A DNA stretch of 24,803 nt, from the NCBI GenBank assembly GCA_900547035.1, contig URFM01000052.1, positions 1 to 24,803 of the forward strand, written 5' to 3'. The notes below the pieces were generated by a model that saw nothing but the letters and a program-made list of their open reading frames with translations, made no database searches and was not told where the DNA came from. This stretch comes from an uncultured Clostridium sp. (GTDB lineage Bacteria; Bacillota; Clostridia; Lachnospirales; Lachnospiraceae). This document shows, in pieces, positions 690 through 22,018 of the stretch (the first letter of the stretch is position 1; the number at the start of each line of letters is the position of its first letter). Position numbers and translations under genes: made by a program.

Positions 690-781
690 GAAATTAAATG
701 TTGAAAAATTGTGGGAAAAATAAAACCTTTGCTCTGGTTGATACGTCTTTTGATTAAGAAAGATGAAGGAGGAGAATGAAT

Positions 782-3520
782 ATGGAGCAAACGATCAGAG
801 GTCTTGTGCTGGCGGCTCAGGGAGGCGACCAGCAGGCCATCGCACAGCTGTACGAGCAGAGCAGCAAAAAGGCCTACTATTTGGCTAAGCAGCTGCTGAA
901 GAATGAGGATTTGGCCCAGGATATTCTGCAGGATTCCTATGTGAAGGTATTTTCTAATCTGCATATGCTGCGCCAGCCGGAGAATTTCCAGGGTTGGCTG
1001 GACACAGTGGTGATCAACAAGAGCAAAGACTATCTGAAAAAGAAGAAACCGGTGCTTTTTTCTCAGATGTCCTCGGAGGAAGAGCCGGATAAGGAGATTG
1101 ATTTCGAGGACGACCGGAGTGCATTTCAGCCGGAGGCCCAGGTGGACTATAAGGAAACGAAACGCTTGGTCCAGGCCATGATTGATAGTCTGCCCGAGGA
1201 GCAGCGGATGGCGGTGGTGCTGAGGTATCTGGAGGACATGCCGGTGAAACGGATCGCCCAGATCATGGAGTGTTCCGAGGGAACGGTAAAGAGCCGGCTG
1301 AACTATGGCCGGAAAGCCATCAAAGCTCAGGTGCTGGAGCTGGAGAAGAAAGGTACCAAGCTCTACTGCATGCCTCTCATTCCGTTCTTGTACTGGATGT
1401 TCCGCCAGCAGGTACTGTCTACGGTGGCCCCTGCTTTTGCAGGAGTTGGAGCAGCGGCAGCAGCCGGAGCAGCTTCGGGGAGCGCCCAGGCGGCTGGAGC
1501 TTCCTCTGGTGCAGCGGGAGCATCATCCGGTGCGGCGAGCGGAGCAGGTCAGGCTGCGGTTTCAGGTCAGGCGACAGCAGCAGGCGGTGCGGCCCAGGGA
1601 GCGGCTTCCGGAGCCGGAGCAGCGGCGGGAGGACTTGGAAAAGGTGTCGCCACTGCGGCAGTAAAGACAGGAGCGGCGGCAGCTGGCAAAGGAATCGCGG
1701 TGAAAGCTGTTGCGGTGGCTGCGGCAGTGTGCATCGGCGGCGGAGCCGCGGCCGGAGGAGTCTATTTGGCCAGAAGAAGTGAAACGGCGGCTGTGGAAGA
1801 GGCGGAACACGCCGAAACGATGCAGAGGGACAATGGGGAAGGATTGGAAGAGTCAGGGGGAGCGGCAGAAAGTGAATTGGTGTCAGAGAAAATGCAGGCA
1901 TTATCAGCCGTAGCGGAAGCAGCCCGGGCTGGAAATCAGATGCAATTAGCTGAGGTATTTTGTACTTATTTCGATGTACTTTATGAGATATCGGTGGATG
2001 ATTTTCAGGGAGAGTATGTACTGTTCGATGGAGAGCGGCTGCTTCCGGATGTAGAAGGTGAAGGACTGTTGCTTCGTACAAGGAGCCGCTTGGATCGGCA
2101 TCAGGGAGGAGCGGGTAGTCCGGAGACTGAGGAAACAAGATATTTTCTTACAGGCTACTATGGGAATTTTACAGATGAAGTTCCGGAAGGTGAACTGCTG
2201 GCTTTTGGGTCTTCGCGTTTGATCAGCAGAACAGAGCCTCCGGTTGGTATGTCAATTTGTCAGGGTACCTATTATGGAGGAGAACATCAGGGTGAAATAA
2301 GAACGTGGCATTGGTATAGGGAAGATCATGACTGGAAAGTAGTTGCAGAGACATCAGGTGATTATATTGAACCGGGTGATGGGTATGGGTACACCGGTCA
2401 TTTTGATATATCTATGGATTCCGATTATTGGGAGACTTTTATATATGGCCCTCAAGGGAATGAAGAACAGTTTTGGGAGTATCCGGATGGGGGATTGCCT
2501 GAAACATTGTACTTTAGTCTGGATATCCAAGAAGGAATGAGTGAGCAGGGCAGGGATTCCTCCTATTATGGAGTTAGCGATGGTACGATCTATACTGAGG
2601 ACGTTGCATGGATCAAAGTGACAGATGAGACAGGAAATTATGGAATGAGCGCGGATGAGCTGGTTGAGAATACAATTGAGGAGGTAATTGTCTGGTCCGA
2701 CCGCTCCTTCAATCAAGGCGAGGGAACCGTACCATTCGAGGGGACTTCGACCCGGGAAGGAGAACGGGGAACGCAAACCGAGACAGCTGAACAGACGGCA
2801 GAACAGATCGCCGAATCGTCCTATGAAGGGGCGGAAGATGTGGTTCAGCTAATGGAGCAGTACGGTCAGCAGACCTTTCAGGGAAGGCTTTCGACTCAAA
2901 ATATGCAGGAGACGGAAGAAGGGTATCTAATGACGGTGCAGCTGGTAGTTCCTCTTACCTTTGATGAAGATCCTACGGAAGGAAAGGCAGTAGGAGATAC
3001 GGTTACCTTCACAGTCAGTGATGTGACCGGACAGATCGCAGAGTTTGAACTGGAAGAAGATGTAATCAGCGGAGGTTTGCAATTTGATTCTTGTGAATTT
3101 AAGTTTCGATATGAGCCTTTCGAGAAGGATGGAAAATGGAGAGCGAATGGATTGAATGATATCGAATTGGCAAAAGAAGTCTATTTGGGACAGATCCTTT
3201 TGAGGAAGGATGCACAAATTGAAGTTTTTCAAAATATGGATGATTATAACCAGGTGAATCTTAGCAATGTTTCTGCTGAGGACTTTGCGGAGGCGCCGGA
3301 AGATTGCTACTGGCGCTGCGAGGACGGAGAGTTGGGCTTGAAAGAACCGGAGGAAGTGGAGGAAACGGAATTGGTATTCAACGAAACCGGAGGTGCTGAA
3401 CTCGTTCCAACGGGACGAACGAGGCTGGAGTATGATTATCCTACGATCAGGGGAGCGTGTACCCTTGTGTTGGATGAAAACGGAAACATCTCCAAAGTTA
3501 CGCAAAACTGGTTCCCGTAA
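782..3520 (+). CDS. ECF-like sigma factor fused to a transmembrane segment and large extracytoplasmic domain
   Basis: The predicted protein has about 912 residues. Residues ~10-90 match sigma-70 region 2 (EDLAQDILQDSYVKVF, NFQGWLDTVVINKSKDYL). Residues ~130-185 match region 4 with its helix-turn-helix (SLPEEQRMAVVLRYLEDMP, IAQIMECSEGTVKSRLNYGR). A short hydrophobic patch (PLIPFLYWMF) follows at ~200, then a ~100-residue Ala/Gly/Ser-rich low-complexity linker. Next is one transmembrane segment (about residues 303-328, AVAVAAAVCIGG... ending in ARR) and ~580 acidic residues that should lie outside the cell. I recognise no family in that outer domain. ECF sigma factors are normally ~160-200 aa and soluble. 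AAGGAGG at 766-772 lies 9 nt before the ATG at 782 but only 3 nt before an in-frame ATG at 776, so 782 is the likelier start. The outer half is visibly more AT-rich than the linker. The sigma assignment is firm; the tethering topology is inferred. Confidence 0.88.
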   Translation: MEQTIRGLVLAAQGGDQQAIAQLYEQSSKKAYYLAKQLLKNEDLAQDILQDSYVKVFSNLHMLRQPENFQGWLDTVVINKSKDYLKKKKPVLFSQMSSEEEPDKEIDFEDDRSAFQPEAQVDYKETKRLVQAMIDSLPEEQRMAVVLRYLEDMPVKRIAQIMECSEGTVKSRLNYGRKAIKAQVLELEKKGTKLYCMPLIPFLYWMFRQQVLSTVAPAFAGVGAAAAAGAASGSAQAAGASSGAAGASSGAASGAGQAAVSGQATAAGGAAQGAASGAGAAAGGLGKGVATAAVKTGAAAAGKGIAVKAVAVAAAVCIGGGAAAGGVYLARRSETAAVEEAEHAETMQRDNGEGLEESGGAAESELVSEKMQALSAVAEAARAGNQMQLAEVFCTYFDVLYEISVDDFQGEYVLFDGERLLPDVEGEGLLLRTRSRLDRHQGGAGSPETEETRYFLTGYYGNFTDEVPEGELLAFGSSRLISRTEPPVGMSICQGTYYGGEHQGEIRTWHWYREDHDWKVVAETSGDYIEPGDGYGYTGHFDISMDSDYWETFIYGPQGNEEQFWEYPDGGLPETLYFSLDIQEGMSEQGRDSSYYGVSDGTIYTEDVAWIKVTDETGNYGMSADELVENTIEEVIVWSDRSFNQGEGTVPFEGTSTREGERGTQTETAEQTAEQIAESSYEGAEDVVQLMEQYGQQTFQGRLSTQNMQETEEGYLMTVQLVVPLTFDEDPTEGKAVGDTVTFTVSDVTGQIAEFELEEDVISGGLQFDSCEFKFRYEPFEKDGKWRANGLNDIELAKEVYLGQILLRKDAQIEVFQNMDDYNQVNLSNVSAEDFAEAPEDCYWRCEDGELGLKEPEEVEETELVFNETGGAELVPTGRTRLEYDYPTIRGACTLVLDENGNISKVTQNWFP

Positions 3521-3617: not shown

Positions 3618-3663
3618 TAACAACCGAAAAGAAGCACAAATGCTTGACAACAAAATAAAATTT

Positions 3664-3748
3664 TCCCGGGGTGTCGCATGGCGGCTGAGACGGCTTTTTA
3701 AGCCGGACCCGTTAACCTGATCCGGTTCATACCGGCGTAGGGAGTGAA
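3664..3748 (+). ncRNA. TPP riboswitch aptamer (THI element)
   Basis: The conserved blocks of the thiamine pyrophosphate aptamer occur in order: GGGGTG at 3668-3673, GCTGAGA at 3684-3690, GGACCC at 3705-3710, AACCTGATCCGGTT at 3713-3726, and ATACCGGCGTAGGGA at 3729-3743. A variable P3-type hairpin is seen as CGGCTT (3691-3696) pairing with AAGCCG (3700-3705). The aptamer senses intracellular TPP and normally lowers expression of thiamine genes when TPP is plentiful. It lies directly upstream of ykoFEDC, as expected. Confidence 0.97.
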
Positions 3749-3758
3749 AGATGAAGAA

Positions 3759-3802
3759 AAGCCTCTTTTGCTGCGAGAATCGCGGGAGATCAAAGGAGGC
3801 TT
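3759..3802 (+). promoter_or_regulatory. Expression platform: hairpin masking the ykoF ribosome binding site
   Basis: AAGCCTCTTTTG (3759-3770) pairs over 12 bp, with one T-G, with CAAAGGAGGCTT (3791-3802). The second strand contains the whole Shine-Dalgarno AAAGGAGG (3792-3799) of the gene starting at 3808. An inner stem, CTGCGA (3771-3776) with TCGCGG (3780-3785), extends it. AAAAGCC (3757-3763) could instead pair with GGCTTTT (3692-3698) in the P3 arm of the aptamer. That gives a plausible ligand-free alternative that would free the ribosome binding site. Translational control is the simplest reading. The TTATTTT after the stem leaves termination as a second possibility. Confidence 0.75.
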
Positions 3803-4488: not shown

Positions 4489-5085
4489 ATGAAATTCGAC
4501 TGGAAACTAAAGGATATTTTAATGGTAGGAATCGCGGGAGTACTGTTCTCATTTCTTTATTTGGGAATGGTATATGTGGGAACGGCCCTGTGTACGGCGA
4601 TGACGCCCTTTGGAATGGGCGCTGCCGGATACGAGCCCATCTACGGAATCTGGTTTATGGCGGGCATGTTCGCCCTTTATGTCATCCGCAAGCCGGGAAC
4701 CGGCGTGGTGGCGGAAATGCTGGCGGCTCTCCTGGAGGTGCTGATGGGCAATATGTTCGGCCCCAGGGTGTTCCTTACCGGCTTCTTCCAGGGAATCGGA
4801 ACGGAGATTGGGTTTGCCATCGGAGGTTACAAAAAATATGATATGAAAACCGTTTTGATTGCCTCCGTCACCACCACCATTACCAGTTTTATCTGGAACA
4901 CTTATACTTCCGCCTACTATACACTGGAGCTGTGGCTGGTCGTGGTGATGTTTATCATCCGTCTGGTCAGCTCTCTGCTGTTCTGCGGCGTGATTACCAA
5001 GAAGTTGGCGGACGGACTGGCAAAGGCAGGAGTTTTGAAGGGATACGCCATCGGACAGCAGTATGACAATTTTGACGAGGAGTAA
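4489..5085 (+). CDS. ykoE: ECF transporter S component for thiamine/hydroxymethylpyrimidine (YkoE)
   Basis: This 198-residue integral membrane protein is the substrate-binding S component of an energy-coupling-factor importer. About five to six hydrophobic segments are visible: IAGVLFSFLYLGMVYVGT near residue 15, GIWFMAGMFALYVI near 55, a central block around the VFLTGFFQGIGTEIGFAIGGY region, and a C-terminal helix LWLVVVMFIIRLVSSLLFCGVI. GTEIGFAIGGYKKYD is characteristic of the YkoE family. The ATG at 4489 is preceded by GGAAAGGAATGGAAGG. The gene sits 45 nt after ykoF in the same operon. The TPP riboswitch supports thiamine or its pyrimidine precursor as the substrate. Confidence 0.92.
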   Translation: MKFDWKLKDILMVGIAGVLFSFLYLGMVYVGTALCTAMTPFGMGAAGYEPIYGIWFMAGMFALYVIRKPGTGVVAEMLAALLEVLMGNMFGPRVFLTGFFQGIGTEIGFAIGGYKKYDMKTVLIASVTTTITSFIWNTYTSAYYTLELWLVVVMFIIRLVSSLLFCGVITKKLADGLAKAGVLKGYAIGQQYDNFDEE

Positions 5086-5092
5086 TTACCAC

Positions 5093-6604
5093 ATGAGTGA
5101 AACATCCATCCATGTTCCGGCCATTGAGCTGGAACATGTGACGTTTCGGTACTTTGAACATGGAAAGCACAATGTTCTGGAGGACGCCTGCCTGAAGATT
5201 CCGCAGGGAAAGATTACGGTGATTGCCGGAAACAGCGGCTGCGGCAAGAGCACCATGGCCGCTGTGGCGTCAGGGCTGTATCCGGAGAACGGAGGCGTCC
5301 TGTCTTCCGGAACCATCCGTCTGTTTGGACATCCGGTAAATGAACTGAATCCGGCGGCCAGAAGCCGCTATCTTTCCATGATGTTTCAGAATCCGGATTT
5401 GCAGTTCTGCATGGATACCCTCCGTAAAGAACTGCGTTTTTGTTTGGAAAACATTTCTGTTCCCAGGGAGGAGATGGATTCGAAACTGGAATATTGGGCG
5501 GAGAAAATGGAAATGACGCCTTTTCTGGACCGGAAGCTTTACACCCTGTCCGGCGGCGAAAAGCAGAAGGCAGCTCTGGCATGTTTATTTTTACTGGGCT
5601 CCAGGGCAATTTTGATGGATGAGCCATTTGCCAATATTGATGAGAAATGGGCAAAGGAGATTATTCAGTGGATTGTCCGTCAGAACCGGGAGCAGGGACT
5701 GACGGTGGCGGCCATTGACCACCGGCTGGATTACTGGCTGACCGCAGCAGATGAGGTCATCGTCATGGGCAAAGGCGGAGTGATTCTGGACCGGGGTATT
5801 AACCGGGAAAATTTCGAAGACCACAGGGCTGTATTTGACCAGGAAGGGCTTTATTATCCGGGGCGTTACCAACCGGCGGTGAACATACGGGAGGAAAGAG
5901 AACCAGCCCTGGTGCTGGATCAGGTTTCTGTGGAAGGACTGCTGGACCAGGCTTCGGCTGTGATCCCCAAGGGACAGATTACCGCGCTTTTAGGCCCATC
6001 CGGCTGTGGAAAAACCACGCTGTTTCGCACGCTCTTAGGGAAAAAGTCCTACGGCGGTTCTATGAAAGCGGATTTTGGCCAGGGGCTGAGAGAAATCTCG
6101 GGCATTCGGCCCAAAGAGCGTTTTCTGCATATGGGTATTGTCTTTCAGAATCCCAGCAATCAGTTTATCAGCCAAAACGTATATCAGGAAGTGGAAGAAA
6201 GCTACCGCCGCTGGCAGCCCGGGCTGAAAGAGGGGGAAAGAAAGGAACTGGCAGAGGAACAGCTGAAAGCCTATGGCCTGGGCCAGTACCGGAAATATTC
6301 ACCCTATATGCTGAGTCAGGGACAGCAGAGGCGCTTGGCCGTGCTGGCGGCATTGGCGGGAAATCAGGAGATTCTTCTGCTGGACGAGCCTACTTACGGT
6401 CAGGACTATCGTTCTGCCATGGCGATTATGGAGGAGCTGAAAGAGAAAGTTGAGAAAGAAGGACTGACAGTGCTGATGGCGACCCATGACCGTCCGCTGG
6501 CTCAGGCGGTAAGCCATGTGATCTACGAGATTCAGGAGAAAAAACTGGTTCGGATTTCCGGTCAGCAGCCGGGGAAAGGAGAAAACGATGGAGCAGAAAA
6601 TTGA
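5093..6604 (+). CDS. ykoD: ECF transporter ATPase with two fused ABC domains (YkoD)
   Basis: The predicted protein has 503 residues and carries two complete ABC ATPase domains in one chain, the usual form of YkoD. Domain 1 has Walker A GNSGCGKST (~46-54), signature LSGGEKQ (~153) and Walker B LMDEPF (~175). Domain 2 has Walker A GPSGCGKTT (~301-309), signature LSQGQQRR (~406) and Walker B LLDEPT (~429), with a switch histidine in ATHDRP. Both halves look catalytically competent. They power uptake through YkoC and YkoE. GAGGAG (5077-5082) lies 10 nt before the ATG at 5093, just after the ykoE stop. An in-frame ATG at 5063 has no ribosome binding site and is less likely. The 3' end overlaps ykoC by 17 nt, suggesting translational coupling. 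Confidence 0.93.
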   Translation: MSETSIHVPAIELEHVTFRYFEHGKHNVLEDACLKIPQGKITVIAGNSGCGKSTMAAVASGLYPENGGVLSSGTIRLFGHPVNELNPAARSRYLSMMFQNPDLQFCMDTLRKELRFCLENISVPREEMDSKLEYWAEKMEMTPFLDRKLYTLSGGEKQKAALACLFLLGSRAILMDEPFANIDEKWAKEIIQWIVRQNREQGLTVAAIDHRLDYWLTAADEVIVMGKGGVILDRGINRENFEDHRAVFDQEGLYYPGRYQPAVNIREEREPALVLDQVSVEGLLDQASAVIPKGQITALLGPSGCGKTTLFRTLLGKKSYGGSMKADFGQGLREISGIRPKERFLHMGIVFQNPSNQFISQNVYQEVEESYRRWQPGLKEGERKELAEEQLKAYGLGQYRKYSPYMLSQGQQRRLAVLAALAGNQEILLLDEPTYGQDYRSAMAIMEELKEKVEKEGLTVLMATHDRPLAQAVSHVIYEIQEKKLVRISGQQPGKGENDGAEN

Positions 6605-13450: not shown

Positions 13451-15175
13451 ATGCAGTACGCAGAAATGGAAGAGGTTTACAGACGGTGGTGCAGGGAGGC
13501 TACGGAGGATACGGATGTAGCCCTGGAGTTAAAGCAGATGGAGCAGGATCCGGAAAAGATTGAGGACGCTTTTTACCGGAGCCTTTCTTTTGGCACAGGA
13601 GGTTTAAGAGGGCTGATCGGAGCAGGTACCAACCGGATGAATTTGTATACGGTGGCTCAGGCGACACAGGGGGCGGCCGACTATATTTGCGCCTTTTTTC
13701 CAAAGGAGAAGAGGAGGGTGGCTGTCAGCTATGATTCCCGCATCAAATCCCGACTTTTTGCGGAGACGGCGGCCCAGGTGCTGGCGGCAAACGGCGTGGA
13801 GGTAAAGCTTTTTTCCAGGCTTATGCCTACGCCCTGCCTTTCCTTTGCGGTGCGGCGCCTCTCCTGCTGCCTGGGGATTATGATTACCTCCTCCCACAAT
13901 CCGGCACGGTACAACGGCTACAAGGTCTATGGCGCCGACGGCTGCCAGATTACCAGCCAGGCTGCAGGGGAGATTTTTAAGCGGATTGGAAGGCTGGATG
14001 TGTTCCGGGATGTGAAGCGCCTGGAGTTTGAGGAGGCGGTGAAGGGAAAGCTGGTTTCCTACGTCGGGGAGGACACGGTGACTGCCTATGTGGAAGCGGT
14101 GAAAGCCCAGTCCCTCCTTGCGGAACAGACGCCGGCCCGCCGGGATATGACCATTGTCTATACCCCCTTAAACGGAACGGGTCTGGAACCGGTGACCCGG
14201 GTGTTAAAGGAGAAGGGGTATTCGGACGTCCATCTGGTAAAGGAGCAGGAGCAGCCGGACGGGACATTTCCCACATGCCCTTATCCCAACCCGGAAGTGC
14301 CTGAGTCTATGGATTTGGGGATTGCCCTGGCAGAGAGGCTGGGCGGAGAACTTCTTCTGGCCACGGATCCGGACTGCGACCGGGTGGGAATTGCCGTAAA
14401 GGACGGGGAGGGAGGATACCGTCGCCTCTCCGCCAACGAGACGGGGCTGCTGCTTCTGGACTATGTCTGCTCCAGAAGACAGGATCTGGGAACTATGCCG
14501 GCTCATCCGGTGATGGCAAAGACCATTGTGACCACGGCCCTGGCAGAGCCCATCGCCGCCCATTACGGCGTTCAGGTGGTGAATCTGCTGACGGGATTCA
14601 AGTATATTGGAGAATTTATCGGACAGCTGGAAGCGGCAGGGCGGGAGTCGGATTTTATTTTTGGCTTTGAGGAGAGCTGCGGTTATCTGAGCGGCACCTA
14701 TGTCCGAGACAAGGACGGGGTGAACGCGGCCCTTTTAATCTGCGAGATGTCTGCCTTTTATCTGGCCGGAGGAAAATCTCTGCTTGAGCGGCTGAATGAA
14801 CTTTATGAGACCTACGGCTACTGCCTGGAGACCCAGCACTCCTATCAGTTTGATGGTTCGGCGGGAGCCCGGCAGATGAAGGACATCATGGAGGCGTTCC
14901 GGGCAAAAGGAGCGGACATGGACGGTCTGGAAGTGGAACAGGTCCTGGACTACGAGCAGGGCTTGGAAGGGCTGCCGAAATCCAATGTGTTAAAATATGT
15001 GCTGAAGGACGGCGGAACAGTGATTCTGCGGCCGTCCGGGACGGAGCCCAAGCTGAAGCTTTACCTTTCCGTATCCTCCAGAAGGAAGGAAGACTTAGAA
15101 GAGATGGAGCGGCAGCGGGCAGAGGCCGTGGAGCGCTTTATGGAAAACGTGAGAACGGGGAACAGTCATGAGTGA
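13451..15175 (+). CDS. Phosphoglucomutase/phosphomannomutase (PgcA-type)
   Basis: This 574-residue alpha-D-phosphohexomutase is close in length to Firmicute PgcA proteins (~580). All four motifs are intact: catalytic phosphoserine loop TSSHNPARYNGYKVYG (~145), metal-binding DPDCDRVGIA (~306), sugar-binding FGFEESCGYLSG (~404), and phosphate-binding RPSGTEPKLKLYL (~527). It interconverts hexose-6- and hexose-1-phosphates. The context suggests two outputs: mannose-1-phosphate for ManC and glucose-1-phosphate for RfbF. Which it prefers cannot be read from the sequence. It has an AGAAGGAGAA ribosome binding site, and its stop overlaps the next start by 8 nt. Confidence 0.94.
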   Translation: MQYAEMEEVYRRWCREATEDTDVALELKQMEQDPEKIEDAFYRSLSFGTGGLRGLIGAGTNRMNLYTVAQATQGAADYICAFFPKEKRRVAVSYDSRIKSRLFAETAAQVLAANGVEVKLFSRLMPTPCLSFAVRRLSCCLGIMITSSHNPARYNGYKVYGADGCQITSQAAGEIFKRIGRLDVFRDVKRLEFEEAVKGKLVSYVGEDTVTAYVEAVKAQSLLAEQTPARRDMTIVYTPLNGTGLEPVTRVLKEKGYSDVHLVKEQEQPDGTFPTCPYPNPEVPESMDLGIALAERLGGELLLATDPDCDRVGIAVKDGEGGYRRLSANETGLLLLDYVCSRRQDLGTMPAHPVMAKTIVTTALAEPIAAHYGVQVVNLLTGFKYIGEFIGQLEAAGRESDFIFGFEESCGYLSGTYVRDKDGVNAALLICEMSAFYLAGGKSLLERLNELYETYGYCLETQHSYQFDGSAGARQMKDIMEAFRAKGADMDGLEVEQVLDYEQGLEGLPKSNVLKYVLKDGGTVILRPSGTEPKLKLYLSVSSRRKEDLEEMERQRAEAVERFMENVRTGNSHE

Positions 15176-18100
15176 TATTAGCTATGAAATCCTGGATTTG
15201 ATGAAAGAATATGGAGAGAGCCGGCAGGGGCTGGATGAGGCCCTGGCCCAGGACCACCGGCCCCAGGTCCTTTACGCCCTGGCGGAGGGAAGGGAAAACC
15301 TGCTGGAATGGCTGGATTTTTCCGGAGAGGACCAGGTACTTGAGATGGGGTCCGGCTACGGAGCCCTGACGGGCCTTCTGGCAGAACGCTGCGGCCAGGT
15401 GACGGTTCTGGAGAAGCTGGATGAAAACTGCGAGGTAAACCGCAGGAGAAATCAGGGAAGGGGAGTAATCCGCTTCCTGAACGAGCTGTCCCAGCTGAAG
15501 CCGGAAGAAAAATTTCAGTGGATTTTTCTTCTTCGGCCTTCGGCGGAAAGAAGTCTGAAGGAGCAGATTGTACAGCTGGTTCCGTTTTTGACGGAGGACG
15601 GGCGCCTGGTGGTGGCCTGCGCCAATTCCCTGGGTCTGCCTTATCTTTCCGGCGCTCCCAGGCAGGAGGATGAGGCGGCCTGCACTCTGGGGCAGTTCCG
15701 TCAGGCTCTGCAGGGAGCCGGACTGGAGCGGATAGAATTTTATTATCCTGTACCGGATGGACAGATTCCGGGAACGATCTATTCCCAGCGGTATCTTCCG
15801 GTCCAGGGGGATATTCCCGCGCTGTATGCCGCTTATGAGGAAGGACGCTATGCCTGCCTTCCGGAGGGTCAGGTCTATGACCAGCTGATTGAGGAGGGGG
15901 ACTTTGAACGTTTCGCTGCAAGTTTTCTGGCGGTAGCCTCCAGGGAAGGCAAGGCCCAGAGCGCCGTTTTTGCCAAGTACAACCGCACCAGAAAGCCGGC
16001 TTTTCAAATCAGCACGAAGATTCTGGAGGAGGACGGAAAACGCAGGGTAGAGAAGAGCGCCTTAAAGCCGGAGGGGACTGCTCACATCCGTTCCTTTCAG
16101 GATAAATACGAAAAGCTGAAGGCCCTCAATCCCCAGGTGGAGATTCTGAAACCGGAAATTTCCGAGGACGGCAGAAAGGTCCGCTTTGATTTCCTTCAGG
16201 GCCGCACCCTGGAGCAGAAGCTGGCGGATGAGATTCAGGATGGGAAGGCTCCGGTGGAAGCCTTAAAGAAGGCCCTGGATTTCCTGCTGGGACCGGGGGA
16301 GGAGCAGGGAGCGCCCTTTCAGGTTACGCCTGCTTTTACGGAGGTATTTGGAAATATTCCGGATATTGGCGGGATTTCCGGCCCGGCAACCAATCTGGAC
16401 GGACTATTTGAAAACTGGATGGAGACGGAGGGGAAACTCTGTGCCATCGATTACGAGTGGGTCTTCGACTTCCCCATTCCCGCCGGGTTCGTGCGCTACC
16501 GTCTGCTGTACTATTTCTATAACCGTTATCAGGGACGGATGGACTGTTCCGGCCTTCCGGAGTTTTTGAAAAATTTCGGAATCAGCCAGGAGCATGCCGC
16601 AGTGTATGCCGGGATGGAGAAGTCCTTCCAAGCCTACGTCCACGGAGACGGAAACCAGGGGTATCTGGCAAACTACAGCCATCCGGTGATTACCCTGGAA
16701 GAGCTGAAAGGCAGGGACAAGGAACTGGCCCGGGCCAAGGACCGTATCCTGCAGCTTCAGGCGGAGGTGGAGGAGAAGAATCTCCAAATCCGCAAGGAGC
16801 AGGAGGTCCAGCGCCTGACCAACAACCATGTGACCAACCTGGAAGTGATGATTAAGGACCTGCGCCATGAGATTGACGAGCTGGGGAAACTGGCCACCTA
16901 TCTGAACGGCCATGAGGCCCTGGTGTTTAAGGCCAGGAGAAAGCTGGGGGTCCAGGTCAACAAGGCATTCCCCAAGGGGACCAGGAAGCGGAAACTTTTA
17001 AATTATGGAATTAACACCATTAAGCACCCGGTCCGCTACGGAAAGCTTTACGCCACCGCGGAGGGGAGAAACCGGATTGAAGGAGATTTCCAAATCGGGG
17101 ACGCTTACATGCAGTACGGCCGTCTCTCCTTCCCACAGGTGCCGGGAGAGGGGAAAGAAGGGGCAGACGGCTGGGAAGGCCCCATGGTTTCCATCATTAT
17201 CCCCTGCTACAATCAGGTGGGATATACCTACGCCTGCCTTCAGTCCATTCTGGAATATACAAAGGACGTCTCCTACGAGGTCATCATCGCCGACGACGTG
17301 TCCACGGACGCTACCGCCCATCTGGACCGCTATGTGGACGGGCTGGTCATCTGCCGGAACAGCACCAACCAGGGCTTCCTGAAAAACTGCAACAACGCGG
17401 CGAAGAAGGCCCGGGGCAAATACATTTTCTTCCTGAACAATGATACCAAAGTGACGGAGGGGTGGCTATCCTCCCTGGTCAGTATGATGGAGGCGGACCC
17501 CACCATCGGAATCGCCGGCTCCAAGCTGGTTTATCCCGACGGGCGGCTCCAGGAGGCGGGCGGAATCATCTGGAGCGACGCCTCCGGATGGAACTATGGC
17601 CGTCTGGACGACCCGGAGAAGCCGGAGTACAACTATGTGAAGGAAGTGGACTATATCTCCGGCGCCGCCATCCTCATTCCCAGGGCATTGTGGCGGCAGA
17701 TTGGCGGATTTGACGAGCGGTTCGCTCCGGCCTACTATGAGGATACGGACCTGGCTTTTGAGGTGAGAAAGGCCGGCTACCGGGTGGTGTACCAGCCTCA
17801 CTCCAAGGTAATCCATTTTGAGGGGATTTCCAACGGAACGGATGTAAACGGCACGGGACTGAAGCGCTACCAGGTGGAGAATGCGGAGAAGTTTAAGGAG
17901 AAGTGGGCTAAGGAGTTAAAGAGCCAGTGCGTCAACGACGGCAATCCCAATCCCTTCCGGGCCAGGGAGCGCAGCCAGGGCAAACCGATTATCCTGGTGG
18001 TGGACCACTATGTGCCTACCTTTGACAAGGATGCCGGTTCCAAGGCCACCTATCTGTACATGAAAATGTTCCTGAAAAAGGGCTTTGTGGTGAAATTCCT

Positions 18101-19088
18101 GGGGGACAACTTCCTTCACGAGGAGCCTTACACCACCACCCTGGAGCAGATGGGCATCGAGGTCCTCTACGGCGACTGGTACGCCGCCGGAATCTGGGAC
18201 TGGCTGAAGAAAAACGGAAATGAAATTTCCTTCGCCTATCTGAACCGGCCCCACATTGCCACCAAGTATGTGGACTTTATCAAGGATTACACCAAGATTA
18301 AGGTGATTTATTTCGGCCATGACCTCCACTTCCTGCGCCTGAGCCGGGAGTATGAGCTGGACGGAAATATTGAGACTAAGCGGGAGGCAGACTACTGGAA
18401 GTCCATGGAACTGACCATGATGTACAAGGCGGATATGTCCTACTATCCCTCCTATGTGGAAATCGACGTCATCCATTCCATTGACGCCAGCATCCGGGCA
18501 AAAGCTATCTCTCTCTATGTTTACGACACCTTTAAGGAAAAACTGAACGGGGACTTTGAGAAGAGGGAAGGGCTGCTGTTTGTAGGCGGCTTCGCCCATC
18601 CGCCCAACGCGGACGCGGTGCTGTGGTTTGCCAGAGAGATTTTCCCGGCCATCCGAAAGAAACTGCCGGATGTGAAGTTCTATGTGGTGGGCTCCAAGGT
18701 GACCGATGAGATTCAGGCTCTGGAGCAGCCGGACAATGGAATTGTGATCAAAGGTTTTGTCAGCGACGAGGAACTGGAGCGGCTCTACGCCTCCTGCCGG
18801 GTAGTGGTGGTGCCCTTGCGCTACGGCGCCGGGGTGAAGGGAAAGGTGCTGGAAGCCCTCTACAACGGGGCTCCCGTTATCACCACCTCCATCGGAGCAG
18901 AGGGAATTCCCTTTGTGGACCAGGCCTTAAAGATTGAAGATACGGCGGAAGGATTTGCCTGCCAGACCATCGGCCTCTATCAGAATCCGGAACTCTGCCG
19001 CCAGATGCAGCGGAGCACCCAGGACTATATGAAGAAATACTTCAGCCTGGACGGCGCCTGGGATATTATCAAGGACGACTTCACGTAA
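15168..19088 (+). CDS. Multidomain glycosyltransferase: methyltransferase-like, kinase-like, coiled coil, GT2 and GT4 modules
   Basis: The predicted protein has 1306 residues and is very likely cytosolic. Residues ~50-200 look like a SAM-dependent methyltransferase (VLEMGSGYGALTGLLAERC). Residues ~280-490 resemble a protein-kinase/APH-like fold: VEKSALKPEG as a lysine region, DFLQGRTLEQKL as the hinge, and CAIDYEWVFDFPIPAGF as the metal-binding segment. I see no clear HxD catalytic loop, so this module may bind rather than phosphorylate. Residues ~510-580 are a coiled coil. Residues ~672-900 form a GT2 transferase (VSIIIPCYNQ, IIADDVSTDAT, FLNNDTKV, YYEDTDLAFEVRKAGY), close to rhamnosyltransferase-type enzymes. 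Residues ~940-1300 form a GT4 transferase (LLFVGGFAHPPNADAV, PLRYGAGVKGKVLEALYNG, TSIGAEGIP). Two glycosyltransferase sites suggest that it adds two successive sugars. It overlaps the mutase gene by 8 nt. The GT2 and GT4 calls are firm; the kinase-like module is tentative. Confidence 0.88.
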   Translation: MSDISYEILDLMKEYGESRQGLDEALAQDHRPQVLYALAEGRENLLEWLDFSGEDQVLEMGSGYGALTGLLAERCGQVTVLEKLDENCEVNRRRNQGRGVIRFLNELSQLKPEEKFQWIFLLRPSAERSLKEQIVQLVPFLTEDGRLVVACANSLGLPYLSGAPRQEDEAACTLGQFRQALQGAGLERIEFYYPVPDGQIPGTIYSQRYLPVQGDIPALYAAYEEGRYACLPEGQVYDQLIEEGDFERFAASFLAVASREGKAQSAVFAKYNRTRKPAFQISTKILEEDGKRRVEKSALKPEGTAHIRSFQDKYEKLKALNPQVEILKPEISEDGRKVRFDFLQGRTLEQKLADEIQDGKAPVEALKKALDFLLGPGEEQGAPFQVTPAFTEVFGNIPDIGGISGPATNLDGLFENWMETEGKLCAIDYEWVFDFPIPAGFVRYRLLYYFYNRYQGRMDCSGLPEFLKNFGISQEHAAVYAGMEKSFQAYVHGDGNQGYLANYSHPVITLEELKGRDKELARAKDRILQLQAEVEEKNLQIRKEQEVQRLTNNHVTNLEVMIKDLRHEIDELGKLATYLNGHEALVFKARRKLGVQVNKAFPKGTRKRKLLNYGINTIKHPVRYGKLYATAEGRNRIEGDFQIGDAYMQYGRLSFPQVPGEGKEGADGWEGPMVSIIIPCYNQVGYTYACLQSILEYTKDVSYEVIIADDVSTDATAHLDRYVDGLVICRNSTNQGFLKNCNNAAKKARGKYIFFLNNDTKVTEGWLSSLVSMMEADPTIGIAGSKLVYPDGRLQEAGGIIWSDASGWNYGRLDDPEKPEYNYVKEVDYISGAAILIPRALWRQIGGFDERFAPAYYEDTDLAFEVRKAGYRVVYQPHSKVIHFEGISNGTDVNGTGLKRYQVENAEKFKEKWAKELKSQCVNDGNPNPFRARERSQGKPIILVVDHYVPTFDKDAGSKATYLYMKMFLKKGFVVKFLGDNFLHEEPYTTTLEQMGIEVLYGDWYAAGIWDWLKKNGNEISFAYLNRPHIATKYVDFIKDYTKIKVIYFGHDLHFLRLSREYELDGNIETKREADYWKSMELTMMYKADMSYYPSYVEIDVIHSIDASIRAKAISLYVYDTFKEKLNGDFEKREGLLFVGGFAHPPNADAVLWFAREIFPAIRKKLPDVKFYVVGSKVTDEIQALEQPDNGIVIKGFVSDEELERLYASCRVVVVPLRYGAGVKGKVLEALYNGAPVITTSIGAEGIPFVDQALKIEDTAEGFACQTIGLYQNPELCRQMQRSTQDYMKKYFSLDGAWDIIKDDFT

Positions 19089-19109
19089 GCTTTCGTAAAA
19101 ATAAAGTAA

Positions 19110-19129
19110 CCGTCCGGAACTGTTATGAA
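19110..19129 (+). repeat. Solo copy of the cloverleaf 3'-end motif (copy A)
   Basis: CCGTCCGGAACTGTTATGAA matches 17 of 20 bases of 20071-20090, the 3' strand of the cloverleaf helix P1 and its flank. Both lie shortly before the ribosome binding site of the next gene. Flanking TTTCGTAA (19091-19098) and TTATGAAA (19123-19130) can form an 8-bp stem around it. The 61-nt gap 19089-19149 holds nothing else apart from the AAGGAG site. Confidence 0.5.
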
Positions 19130-19149
19130 ATAAAAAGGAGAAACAAAAA

Positions 19150-19935
19150 ATGCCATACACCCATGTATTCGCCGTCTGCGCCTATGGAGAGTCCCCCTAT
19201 CTGGAGGCCTGCCTTCGCTCCTTAAAGGCCCAGACCATGCCCTCTGAAATTATCATCTGCACTTCTACCCCCAGCAATTTTCTGGAGCAGATGGGGGAGA
19301 AATACGGGGTTTCGGTTTATGTCCGTCAGGGGGAGAGCAATATCCGGGACGACTGGAATTTCGCATGGGAGAAGGCGGACGGAGAGTTCGTCACCCTGGC
19401 CCATCAGGACGACGTCTATCACAGAACGTATGGGGAACGGCTGAAGAAGGCGGTCCTTGCCTGGCCGGACATGACGGTGTTTACCAGCGACTATGTGATT
19501 GTGAAGGGAGACAGGCTGATTTCTTGGGACAAGCTGCTGCTGGTGAAGCGCATCCTGCGGATGCCTCTGCGGCTGAAGTGCGCAAGCCACCTTTCACAGG
19601 TGAAAAAGCTGTCCCTGATGCTTGGAAATTCCATCTGCTGCCCGGCCACCACCTACTGCAAGAAGAAAATCGGGGAGCCGTTGATCCGCTCGGATTACTC
19701 CTTTGTGCTGGACTGGGAAAACATGCTGCGACTGGCGGAGCGGCCGGGACGCTGGATTTGTGAAGAAAAGCCCCTGCTCTGTTACCGGGTCCACGATGGG
19801 GCCGCCACCAAGGCCTGTATCCGGGACCACAGAAGGGAGCAGGAGGAGCGGGAAATGTTTGAGCGGTTCTGGCCCCGGCCGGTGGTGGAGCTGCTGATGA
19901 GAGGATACCGCACAGCTTACAAGGAGTACAGTTAA
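19150..19935 (+). CDS. GT-A fold (family 2-like) glycosyltransferase
   Basis: The predicted protein has 261 residues and no transmembrane segment. The N-terminus HVFAVCAYGESPYLEACLRSLKAQT is a variant of the GT2 nucleotide-binding start, and LAHQDDVYHRTYGERL supplies the DxD-type metal site (~95). SYSFVLDWENMLRLAE-type acidic residues follow (DYSFVLDWENML, ~185), then LLCYRVHDGAATK, as in O-antigen transferases. The acceptor and sugar cannot be deduced. AAAGGAG lies 9 nt before the ATG. The stop codon TAA (19933-19935) is also the first bases of the cloverleaf element that fills the gap downstream. Confidence 0.88.
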   Translation: MPYTHVFAVCAYGESPYLEACLRSLKAQTMPSEIIICTSTPSNFLEQMGEKYGVSVYVRQGESNIRDDWNFAWEKADGEFVTLAHQDDVYHRTYGERLKKAVLAWPDMTVFTSDYVIVKGDRLISWDKLLLVKRILRMPLRLKCASHLSQVKKLSLMLGNSICCPATTYCKKKIGEPLIRSDYSFVLDWENMLRLAERPGRWICEEKPLLCYRVHDGAATKACIRDHRREQEEREMFERFWPRPVVELLMRGYRTAYKEYS

Positions 19936-20086
19936 CAGTTCAGGACGGCGGGAAAATGAGGGCAAAAACAGGCGTTAAGCTTGCTTATAAGTATGCTTTT
20001 GCCCTCATTTTCACATTGGATGGACATCCGATGCTTCTTGTCCGGCCTTGGTCGGGCAAGAAGATACCCGCCGTCCTGAACCGTTA
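19933..20086 (+). ncRNA. Cloverleaf-structured element in the polysaccharide operon (unknown family)
   Basis: Four helices surround a compact four-way junction. P1: 19938-19952 with 20067-20081, 15 bp perfect (GTTCAGGACGGCGGG), extended across one mismatch by TAAC 19933-19936 with GTTA 20083-20086. P2: 19953-19967 with 19997-20011, 15 bp perfect (AAAATGAGGGCAAAA), 29-nt loop. P3: 20014-20021 with 20026-20033, 8 bp, GGAC loop. P4: 20034-20046 with 20051-20063, 13 bp, CUUG tetraloop. The junction has only 0, 2, 0 and 3 unpaired bases. The only non-Watson-Crick pairs inside helices are three G-U in plus-strand RNA, which would be A-C in the other strand. It matches no riboswitch I know. Roles considered: a cis-acting operon RNA, or a palindromic mobile repeat. 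Confidence 0.72.
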
Positions 20087-20113
20087 CGAATACAGTTATA
20101 GGAGGCGTTTCTC

Positions 20114-22018
20114 ATGGACACGGGACAGAAAAAGAAAGGCGCGGGACAGAGCGCCGGGGAAAAGCGGAAATTAAGCGGTCTGGGTATGGCCCGGGCGGGA
20201 AAAGACAGTCAGTGGAAGGACCACGTAATCCTCATGGGAATCCTTCTGGGGGCTGCCTTTTGGCTGAACCGGGGGATTGAAATCAAGGGTCTTTATATGG
20301 ACGATTTGTACCTGTGGTCCTGCTACTGGGAACAGAGTTTCCTCCAGTACGTATTTCCCATAGGCAGCACCCGGTTCCGTTTCCTCCACTATCTGGCCGC
20401 CTGGCTGGAGATGATGTTTGTGGGGACTCATGTGAACTGGTTCGTCCCCATCAATATTATCATCAATACTATGGTGGCCTGGGCCATGTATTTGATGGGC
20501 AGAAAGCTGTCCGGTTCCAAGGGGGCGGGCTTCCTTTGCGGCCTTATGTACCTGGCCAGCCGTCTGTCCTACTATCAAATCGGCCAGGTGCTGGGATTGA
20601 TGGAAACCATGGCTCTGTGGATGGGGCTGGGGATTCTCTGGTATCTGTTCCGGTATCTCAATGAGGAGAAGCAGGAGGGAAGGTTTTACGCCGCCTGCGC
20701 CCTGTACTTTGGGGTCTGCTTTGTCCATGAGCGGTACATGGCCCTGTTTCCCCTGCTGCTTTTGGTTCTCCTGATGAAAAAATGCCGCAGGCTTCCCATG
20801 TGGGGGGCGGCGGTAGGCTCCTTCCTCCTGATGCAGCTCATCCGTTTCTTTGCCATCGGGACCGTGATGCCGGCGGGGACCGGAAGGACCCAGGTGGCGG
20901 AGACATTTTCCATCGGGGAGGCATTGAACCACGCTCTCTGCGAGATTGGCTATGTATTTGGCATAAACGCCGGCCCTGATTATCTGAACGGCTGCCCCTG
21001 GGGGAGCAATCCTCTGGCGGTGAAAATCCTGGTCCTGGCGGCGGACCTGCTGATTGCCGTCCTGACCATCGGCTTTATTTGGAATGTGATTCGCCAGAAG
21101 GACAAGGGCCGGAGAGGAAAGCTTCTGGCAAACGCGGCCCTGTTTGTGATCTTCATCGGACTGACCATCGCGGCGGCCTGCGTGACCATCCGGGTGGAGA
21201 TGCGCTGGATTTATATTTCCTTTGCCGCCGCCCTGCTGTTTATGGCCTACATGTACGGGGCTTTGACCGGGGAGGTGAAGCCGGAGTTTTACTTAAAGCG
21301 GTTCTTCCCATGGGGAATCCTTTTGGTAGGCTACGTGGTCTTCATGCTCCCGGTGGAGCTGTTTATGAGGACCTACGCCTTCCCCAACATCTACTTTTTC
21401 CCGGAGCAGGCCAGATACAACTCTCTGGCTGAGGTGACCCATGAGAAATACGGAAATATGGAAGGGAAGACGGTCTACATCATCGGAAACAGCTACGAGG
21501 TCAGCGATTTTACCGCCAGGACCTTCTTTAAGGTATTTCAGAAGGAGGACCCAACCCAGGAGCTGACCAATGTTCAGTTTATTGATTCTGTGTGGGATTT
21601 CGGTCTGGTGGATGAAAATATGATTATCCTTCAGGAGGATCCGGACCACGACCAGTACATCGACATCACCGAGGCCGTCCGGACCATGAAGCTGAGTACC
21701 CAGTACGGCTATTATTATAAGGACCACTGGATGGACGAGCGCGGCTGCATCACAGTAATGGCCGGGGCAAACGGCATCATTAATCTGGAGATTATGTTCC
21801 CGGGCGTCATGGAAGGCGGCGAGGAAATCACCATCACCGTGGGGGATCGGGAAACGAAGGTAATTCCATTAACCTCCAGCGTGGTCAATACCCAGATTCA
21901 GGCAGCGCCTTGGGAACGGGTGCAGCTGACCTTTGCATTTAATTTCTACAGCCAGAACGCCACGGAACAGCGAAGCGATTACCGGCTGGCGGCGCTGGTA
22001 TTCCCCAGTGTGGAGTAG
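20114..22018 (+). CDS. Polytopic membrane protein, GT-C-like, with C-terminal extracytoplasmic domain
   Basis: The predicted protein has 634 residues. A basic cytoplasmic tail (~37 residues) is followed by TM1 (VILMGILLGAAFWL) and an outer loop containing YMDDLYLW. An acidic pair in the first outer loop is where GT-C glycosyltransferases carry their catalytic Asp. About ten further hydrophobic segments extend to ~residue 425, among them INIIINTMVAWAMYLMG, LFPLLLLVLLM, AALFVIFIGLTIAAA and ISFAAALLFMAYMYGAL. The last ~200 residues are soluble and beta-rich (KTVYIIGNSYEVSDF, EEITITVGDRETKVIP). I recognise no named family. A lipid-linked-sugar transferase or other glycan-assembly role is inferred from topology and neighbours. 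ATAGGAGG lies 8 nt before the ATG, directly after the cloverleaf element. Confidence 0.8.
   Translation: MDTGQKKKGAGQSAGEKRKLSGLGMARAGKDSQWKDHVILMGILLGAAFWLNRGIEIKGLYMDDLYLWSCYWEQSFLQYVFPIGSTRFRFLHYLAAWLEMMFVGTHVNWFVPINIIINTMVAWAMYLMGRKLSGSKGAGFLCGLMYLASRLSYYQIGQVLGLMETMALWMGLGILWYLFRYLNEEKQEGRFYAACALYFGVCFVHERYMALFPLLLLVLLMKKCRRLPMWGAAVGSFLLMQLIRFFAIGTVMPAGTGRTQVAETFSIGEALNHALCEIGYVFGINAGPDYLNGCPWGSNPLAVKILVLAADLLIAVLTIGFIWNVIRQKDKGRRGKLLANAALFVIFIGLTIAAACVTIRVEMRWIYISFAAALLFMAYMYGALTGEVKPEFYLKRFFPWGILLVGYVVFMLPVELFMRTYAFPNIYFFPEQARYNSLAEVTHEKYGNMEGKTVYIIGNSYEVSDFTARTFFKVFQKEDPTQELTNVQFIDSVWDFGLVDENMIILQEDPDHDQYIDITEAVRTMKLSTQYGYYYKDHWMDERGCITVMAGANGIINLEIMFPGVMEGGEEITITVGDRETKVIPLTSSVVNTQIQAAPWERVQLTFAFNFYSQNATEQRSDYRLAALVFPSVE

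Follow-up and report, generated by a model that had tools for sequence, protein, structure and literature searches.

The sequence of interest lies in a 24,803-nucleotide stretch of contig URFM01000052.1 from an uncultured Clostridium sp., which is referred to as the window. Its neighbourhood is a polysaccharide operon, which contains genes for a Wzt-like ABC ATPase, an NTP transferase, a phosphomannomutase and glycosyltransferases. The gene at 15168-19088 (+) encodes a 1306-residue protein with GT2 and GT1 glycosyltransferase domains, the N-terminal part of which looks methyltransferase-like by eye. Elsewhere in the window, a TPP riboswitch (RF00059, 78.7 bits) is found at 3657-3760 (+), ahead of genes resembling those of a thiamine-precursor ABC transporter; downstream of it, 4489-5085 matches PF09819 and 5063-6604 appears by eye to be a double ATPase. 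The gene at 776-3520 (+) encodes a 914-residue protein whose N-terminal part has sigma-70 regions 2 and 4 and is followed by an Ala/Gly-rich stretch. Its long C-terminal part has no Pfam match at E ≤ 1e-5, and the protein reads as an ECF-like sigma factor that carries a large extension.

Between a glycosyltransferase gene and the gene that follows it lies a compact cloverleaf, placed at 19933-20086 in a preliminary description of this DNA. The features of this region are as follows.

19932-20087 (+): mobile element, 156 bp; defined by the terminal repeat and 8-bp duplication shared among 81 copies, and by the empty site at locus L001
19924-19931 (+): left target duplication, GAGTACAG, 8 bp
20088-20095 (+): right target duplication, GAATACAG, matching the left one at 7 of 8 positions
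19932-19952 (+): left terminal inverted repeat, the 5' strand of P1; its first base is T here and G in the consensus
20067-20087 (+): right terminal inverted repeat, the 3' strand of P1
19933-19935 (+): stop codon TAA of the glycosyltransferase gene (19150-19935), which comes from the terminal repeat of the element
20097-20099 (+): remnant of the ancestral stop codon, TAT here and TAG in L001
20100-20105 (+): AGGAGG ribosome-binding site of the next gene (20114-22018), identical in L001
19106-19126 (strand not applicable): 21-bp relic of an element of this kind, internally deleted, one gene upstream
19938-19952/20067-20081 (+): P1 as first drawn, in full 19933-19952/20067-20086; the terminal inverted repeat
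19952-20012 (+): P2 hairpin, helix 19953-19967/19997-20011, with two-sided changes at 14 of 15 pairs (75 copies)
Tip of the P2 hairpin (+): P2b, UAAG-CUUG-CUUA
20014-20033 (+): P3 hairpin, helix 20014-20021/20026-20033, with a mean majority identity of 0.97, making it the best-conserved part
20034-20063 (+): P4 hairpin, helix 20034-20046/20051-20063, with two-sided changes at 9 of 13 pairs

Computational folding redrew the four-helix cloverleaf of the preliminary description, with every helix at the coordinates first given. The minimum free energy of 19933-20086 is −89.6 kcal/mol, compared to a mean of −41.5 (sd 3.4) for shuffled sequences (z −14.2), and none of the 200 shuffles folded as well. 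P1 had been correctly identified as paired but was drawn too short, as it is in fact a helix of 20 bp with one mismatch. The three wobble pairs singled out at that time are each G-U on the plus strand, as claimed. Comparison with Rfam gave no family above its gathering score, consistent with the original labelling of the cloverleaf as of unknown class; at a relaxed threshold there were 14 matches, all of them to miRNA or sRNA families and far under their gathering scores. A search for promoter-like sites within and next to the element found none. There is one weak terminator-like match, made up of P3 plus CTTCTTGTCC at 20014-20033 (0.2 expected), the T residues of which sit in the P4 stem.

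The strength of this fold, its position between genes of a polysaccharide operon, and a preference for G-U in its internal stems (described below) all speak for a regulatory RNA specific to this operon, which would prevent premature termination, or couple translation with folding, in the manner of EAR RNA in the Bacillus eps operons. EAR has in common with the element that it is a structured RNA between polysaccharide genes. The two differ in that the element has no Rfam match, is mobile, and occurs genome-wide rather than being bound to one operon, as we now describe.

Searching the fetched loci with nhmmer gave 109 matches, 86 of them full length, which after refinement of the ends comprised 81 distinct copies. 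The ends of the element are GTAACAGTTCAG...CTGAACTGTTAC. Of the 81 full-length copies, 75 measure 150-157 bp and the other six 172-190 bp. The 8-bp flanks agree at 7 or more of 8 positions in 43 of the 81 copies, where random re-pairing of flanks gives an expectation of 0.9, and they do so in 14 of 29 copies in a later set.

The element has matches at E ≤ 1 in all 13 of the selected relatives' genomes: five have 2 to 10 (weak in G007 and G013), and the others have 17 to 89. In the genus of L001, 13 of 17 genomes match at E ≤ 1e-3, with 2 to 42 matches each, a lower bound given that no more than 40 candidates were scored in any genome. Within a sample of 299 Lachnospiraceae genomes, a DNA search at E ≤ 1e-5 with two candidates scored per genome matched 13, while a covariance model made from 75 copies, used at E ≤ 1e-4 with ten candidates scored per genome, matched 36. 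The covariance model also matched 4 of 291 genomes in a class-level sample, three of which were in the family sample as well. There was no match to the element in plasmid records or phage records, and no relative in 35 stretches of viral contigs bearing the flanking protein. A loose version of the end pattern occurs in at least 120 stretches of viral contigs. The conserved P3-P4 stretch, as a 27-base pattern, is present in two IMG/VR contigs (L384 and L385).

Relatives of the locus were gathered by scanning with the upstream glycosyltransferase. Among the best 80 of 562 loci, the nearest relative is that of Candidatus Enterocloster faecavium (L001), in which the protein is 87% identical. L001 has the same gene junction without the element: the gene ends in GAGTACAGTTAG, and this is followed directly by AGGAGGCGTTTCTC. 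Excision of the 156 bp and one 8-bp repeat from the window recreates the L001 sequence, and over more than 40 bases surrounding the site the two differ by a single change, from TAG to TAT.

The relic at 19106-19126 is flanked by AAAATAAA (19098-19105) and GAAATAAA (19127-19134), which match at 7 of 8 positions, and no relic of this type was found in 200 shuffled windows. The preliminary description had missed this relic, the 8-bp flanking direct repeat of the main element, and the stop codon inside it. As read by eye, the same gene junction holds a 33-bp relic between GAATATGA and GAATAAGA in C. clostridioforme (L007), and in C. symbiosum (L029) a member that has another interior, provides the stop codon (TGA) of the gene and looks truncated at its far end. 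The L007 and L029 members are apparently separate insertions, and the last codons of the glycosyltransferase gene are perhaps an insertion hot spot.

The locus thus presents an element with defined ends, a target duplication and an empty site, and the family to which it belongs has a high copy number and scattered positions. At 156 bp, with a 20-bp terminal repeat (one mismatch), an 8-bp duplication and many dispersed copies, it has the features of a MITE, and it is too short to contain a transposase gene. The cloverleaf is very probably a copy of a non-autonomous, MITE-type DNA transposon, inserted behind the glycosyltransferase gene. A transposase acting in trans would have inserted it as double-stranded DNA at the end of this gene, with duplication of 8 bp of the target. 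The effect on the operon was most likely slight: the stop codon was replaced, the next ribosome-binding site was left intact, and 164 bp were added between two genes.

The proposal that the cloverleaf evolved an EAR-like role for this operon does not fit with the many copies per genome at unrelated loci with variable flanks, the 8-bp duplications, the empty site in L001, the unbiased gene orientation (below), or the lack of any Rfam match. We consider such a role highly improbable, and as the origin of the element an operon-specific regulator is ruled out by the empty site. The preliminary description had itself held that homologues scattered among variable flanks would indicate a mobile repeat, and this is what we find, together with the 8-bp duplications and the empty site. 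It had also suggested that a ribosome stopping at 19933-19935 could control folding. Since the element itself carries this stop codon, the overlap of stop codon and fold is a by-product of insertion.

The orientation of the copies relative to neighbouring genes was assigned using a simple ORF caller, which drew an ORF across the element in 24 of the 81 copies. By this measure 27 copies have the same orientation as their neighbours, 21 are opposite, 17 lie between divergent and 9 between convergent genes, and 7 are unassigned. Sense copies make up 27 of the 48 sense and antisense copies (p = 0.47), and the near-equal numbers argue against selection on the transcript of one operon. In complete genome G009, with the origin taken at coordinate 1, 22 copies assigned by hand showed no significant replication-strand bias (14 vs 8, p = 0.29).

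Conservation of the fold was analysed using an alignment of 75 of the 81 copies, from which the six copies of 172-190 bp were left out. In this alignment 94.8% of 4366 cells are paired, and two-sided changes are found at 34 of the 60 pairs. There are 291 two-sided cells, compared to 80.8 in shuffled alignments and 20-38 when the partners are slid. P2 is variable in sequence, yet 98.3% of its cells are paired. The compensatory changes that the preliminary description expected of homologues are therefore strongly present, and the covariation demonstrates that the interior of the element is maintained as hairpins. We note that compensatory changes in palindromes may also come from template-switch correction of DNA hairpins.

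The non-Watson-Crick pairs differ between the interior and the ends. Internal helices contain 107 G-U and 29 A-C cells, against 51 and 52 in P1 (Fisher p = 4e-6 at the level of cells, which are non-independent). The contrast is weaker when distinct internal types are counted, of which there are 28 G-U and 18 A-C. Counted as events on one midpoint-rooted parsimony tree, G-U:A-C is 50:25 for internal helices and 32:45 for P1 in the 75 copies. Addition of 25 of 29 further copies, the other four being outside 148-157 bp, gives a set of 100 copies in which the ratios are 67:46 and 45:59 (p = 0.021). By helix, these 100 copies have 37:17 in P2, 19:16 in P4, 7:8 in P3 and 4:5 in P2b; the internal G-U excess is carried mainly by P2, and the event-level strand test is modest and uneven. 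The corresponding substitutions in unpaired columns number 72:84, so that there is no mutational bias in the G-U direction. Reversion to Watson-Crick pairing occurred 32 times from G-U and once from A-C in internal helices, and five times and once, respectively, in P1. The plus strand outfolds the minus strand in 86 of 100 copies. We propose, with moderate confidence, that there is plus-strand selection on the interior, and DNA-level selection on the ends (P1 overall).

The preliminary description attributed the G-U pairs to selection on the operon transcript. Its observation that the plus strand favours G-U over A-C stands for the internal stems, moderately and mostly in P2; the explanation does not. 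Among private internal events in the 75 copies, G-U:A-C is 14:4 for the sense orientation, 10:4 for antisense, 8:5 for convergent and 6:6 for divergent. Because antisense copies share the excess, the internal preference does not flip with the direction of the surrounding genes. Private changes in P1 are uneven by orientation, at 15:16 in sense, 2:12 in antisense, 8:2 in divergent and 3:6 in convergent copies, which may come from the low counts, or from host transcription through selection or mutation acting on the transcripts.

This last pattern, in which A-C (G-U on the other strand) is in excess in antisense copies, would fit with the mobile repeat having been co-opted by its hosts at many sites, in mRNA processing, in stability or as a non-polar spacer, as has been proposed for some bcr repeats of Bacillus cereus. 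By the simple ORF caller, the upstream gene ends at or just within the start of the element in 11 of 81 copies, which would also fit. In B. cereus, 51% and 40% of repeat copies are reported to be transcribed in two strains, and bcr3 to be linked with decay rate (PMC3446304). Against host use, sense insertions are not in excess over antisense ones (27 and 21), and the internal G-U excess is the same in antisense copies. We therefore regard co-option at many sites as unlikely.

It could also be that the hairpins matter solely as DNA, as a cruciform or a single-stranded transposition intermediate, with covariation arising from palindrome correction, which is an established mutational process. In favour of this, the element consists of DNA, its ends are DNA ends, and it duplicates its target. 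A cruciform predicts equal numbers of G-U and A-C, which holds for P1 overall and fails for the pooled internal stems, whereas an intermediate consisting of one DNA strand would suit the asymmetry. On balance this DNA-only explanation is possible but doubtful. For the MITE-type transposon that we favour, folding would have been selected within the lineage of still-moving copies. One possible benefit is that the folded plus strand, as RNA or single-stranded DNA, takes part in spread; another is that a self-contained fold renders insertions into transcription units harmless.

We searched for an autonomous partner with the same ends, and found none in the 22 of 42 PF03050 loci or the 7 of 21 PF00872 loci that were examined. 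PF03050 (IS66) was found in 7 of 13 and 9 of 14 genomes, and PF00872 (IS256) in 9 of 13. No exact 11-base end pairs lie 0.8-4 kb apart in complete genome G009. Where exact ends are spaced 2 to 8 kb from each other, as in C. symbiosum (G012), G301 and G047, the DNA between them holds host genes and no transposases; one ORF there is, from reading its sequence, what we take to be tyrosyl-tRNA synthetase-like.

The IS66 family offers a parallel, in that its ends start with GTAA and 8 bp are duplicated. An intact-looking 2.5-kb IS66 in G006 (L191, 1265-3786) has GTAA tips, identical GTAAGCGTC ends and the 8-bp duplication GAATTAAG. The remainder of the terminal repeat differs: IS66 ends begin GTAAGCG, both in PMC11946415 and in L191 and L497, while the end of the element, GTAACAGTTCAG, begins GTAACAG. 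The end motif of the element is present in none of the 22 examined IS66 loci, only two of which have clearly recognisable ends. Among the four genomes in which the end sequence is most abundant, G047, G092 and G301 (183, 119 and 104 exact end 12-mers, respectively) have no PF03050; the fourth, G270, has two short PF03050 matches. Derivation of the MITE from the IS66 family thus appears improbable.

The end sequence is not confined to the cloverleaf. The pattern GTAACAGTTCAGNC is present in 76 of 299 Lachnospiraceae genomes. Single matches carry little meaning, because the reversed control matches once or twice in each of about 35 genomes. The pattern occurs at least three times in 45 of the 299 genomes, where the reversed control never exceeds two; it occurs 70 to 163 times in eight genomes, and more than 100 times in three. 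Other interiors of 134, 136, 140, 143, 164-165, 171-174 and 211 bp are found between such ends with perfect 8-bp duplications, and have minimum energies of about −53 to −97 kcal/mol. Of 30 end-bearing loci examined, 13 have a pair of ends with flanks matching at 8 of 8 positions and six have no pair. One alternative interior (11 copies from three genomes), whose first member folds at z −6.6, is mostly conserved when aligned, and 6 of its 44 predicted pairs have two-sided changes.

Some members are shortened. Those of 61 and 100 bp retain the ends, with duplications matching at 7 and 8 of 8 positions, and versions of the Enterocloster element of 104-108 bp match only its first ~90 positions, five of them with a duplication of at least 7/8. 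The 104-108-bp copies also duplicated their target, and the full cloverleaf is therefore dispensable for movement; the ends alone may be sufficient. The loci with shortened members are L481, L482, L121, L122, L124, L127 and L189. At L452, positions 313-342 form a 30-bp end-to-end palindrome with the perfect 8-bp flanking repeat AGCCCTTC. This word is also found inside the 136-bp type, and the palindrome is perhaps a minimal derivative nested in another copy.

A more far-reaching reading is that these repeats form a superfamily of mobile elements in Lachnospiraceae, defined by a 12-bp DNA end and an 8-bp duplication, which carries interchangeable multi-hairpin payloads and for which the plus-strand fold is itself required for spread. 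This is speculative, and we think it rather unlikely. If true, these would be transposons of the DNA type with a requirement for their own RNA (or single strand) in folded form, and the fold would possibly be recognised by, or protect, the mobilising machinery.

We found no published description of this repeat family among open-licence papers. Among known kinds of repeat, it comes closest to the structured, MITE-like ones, of which bcr1 is the best representative. By description, the family is set apart from bcr1, whose target duplication is 5 bp, and from Correia and ERIC, which duplicate TA, by its duplication of 8 bp. Correia elements are the same kind of short repeat as NEMIS, ERIC, BOX and RUP. 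REP elements resemble the present ones as high-copy extragenic palindromes, and are not known to have target duplications. The bcr repeats of the Bacillus cereus group are, like the element, MITE-like, about 150 bp long, intergenic and dispersed, with a conserved stem-loop; bcr1 is listed at 167 bp, and at 147 bp in the literature (PMC2267715 Table 3). The differences are that bcr1 belongs to another host group, the hosts here being Lachnospiraceae, and that in the present family several unrelated structured interiors share one terminal repeat. PMC3110155 describes NEMIS, ERIC, BOX and RUP as short repeats that have mobile-element features and act in mRNA stabilization, in termination or as promoters. 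REPs are given as 20-40 bp in PMC3733652, whereas the elements here are mostly 100-211 bp with 8-bp duplications.

A candidate regulator of one operon is thus replaced by a mobile repeat family common in gut Clostridia. Insertions of this kind can provide stop codons, lie within operons and pass for riboregulators. With DNA-like ends around an apparently strand-constrained interior, the family offers a test of the idea that a small DNA transposon relies on the folded form of its own transcript.
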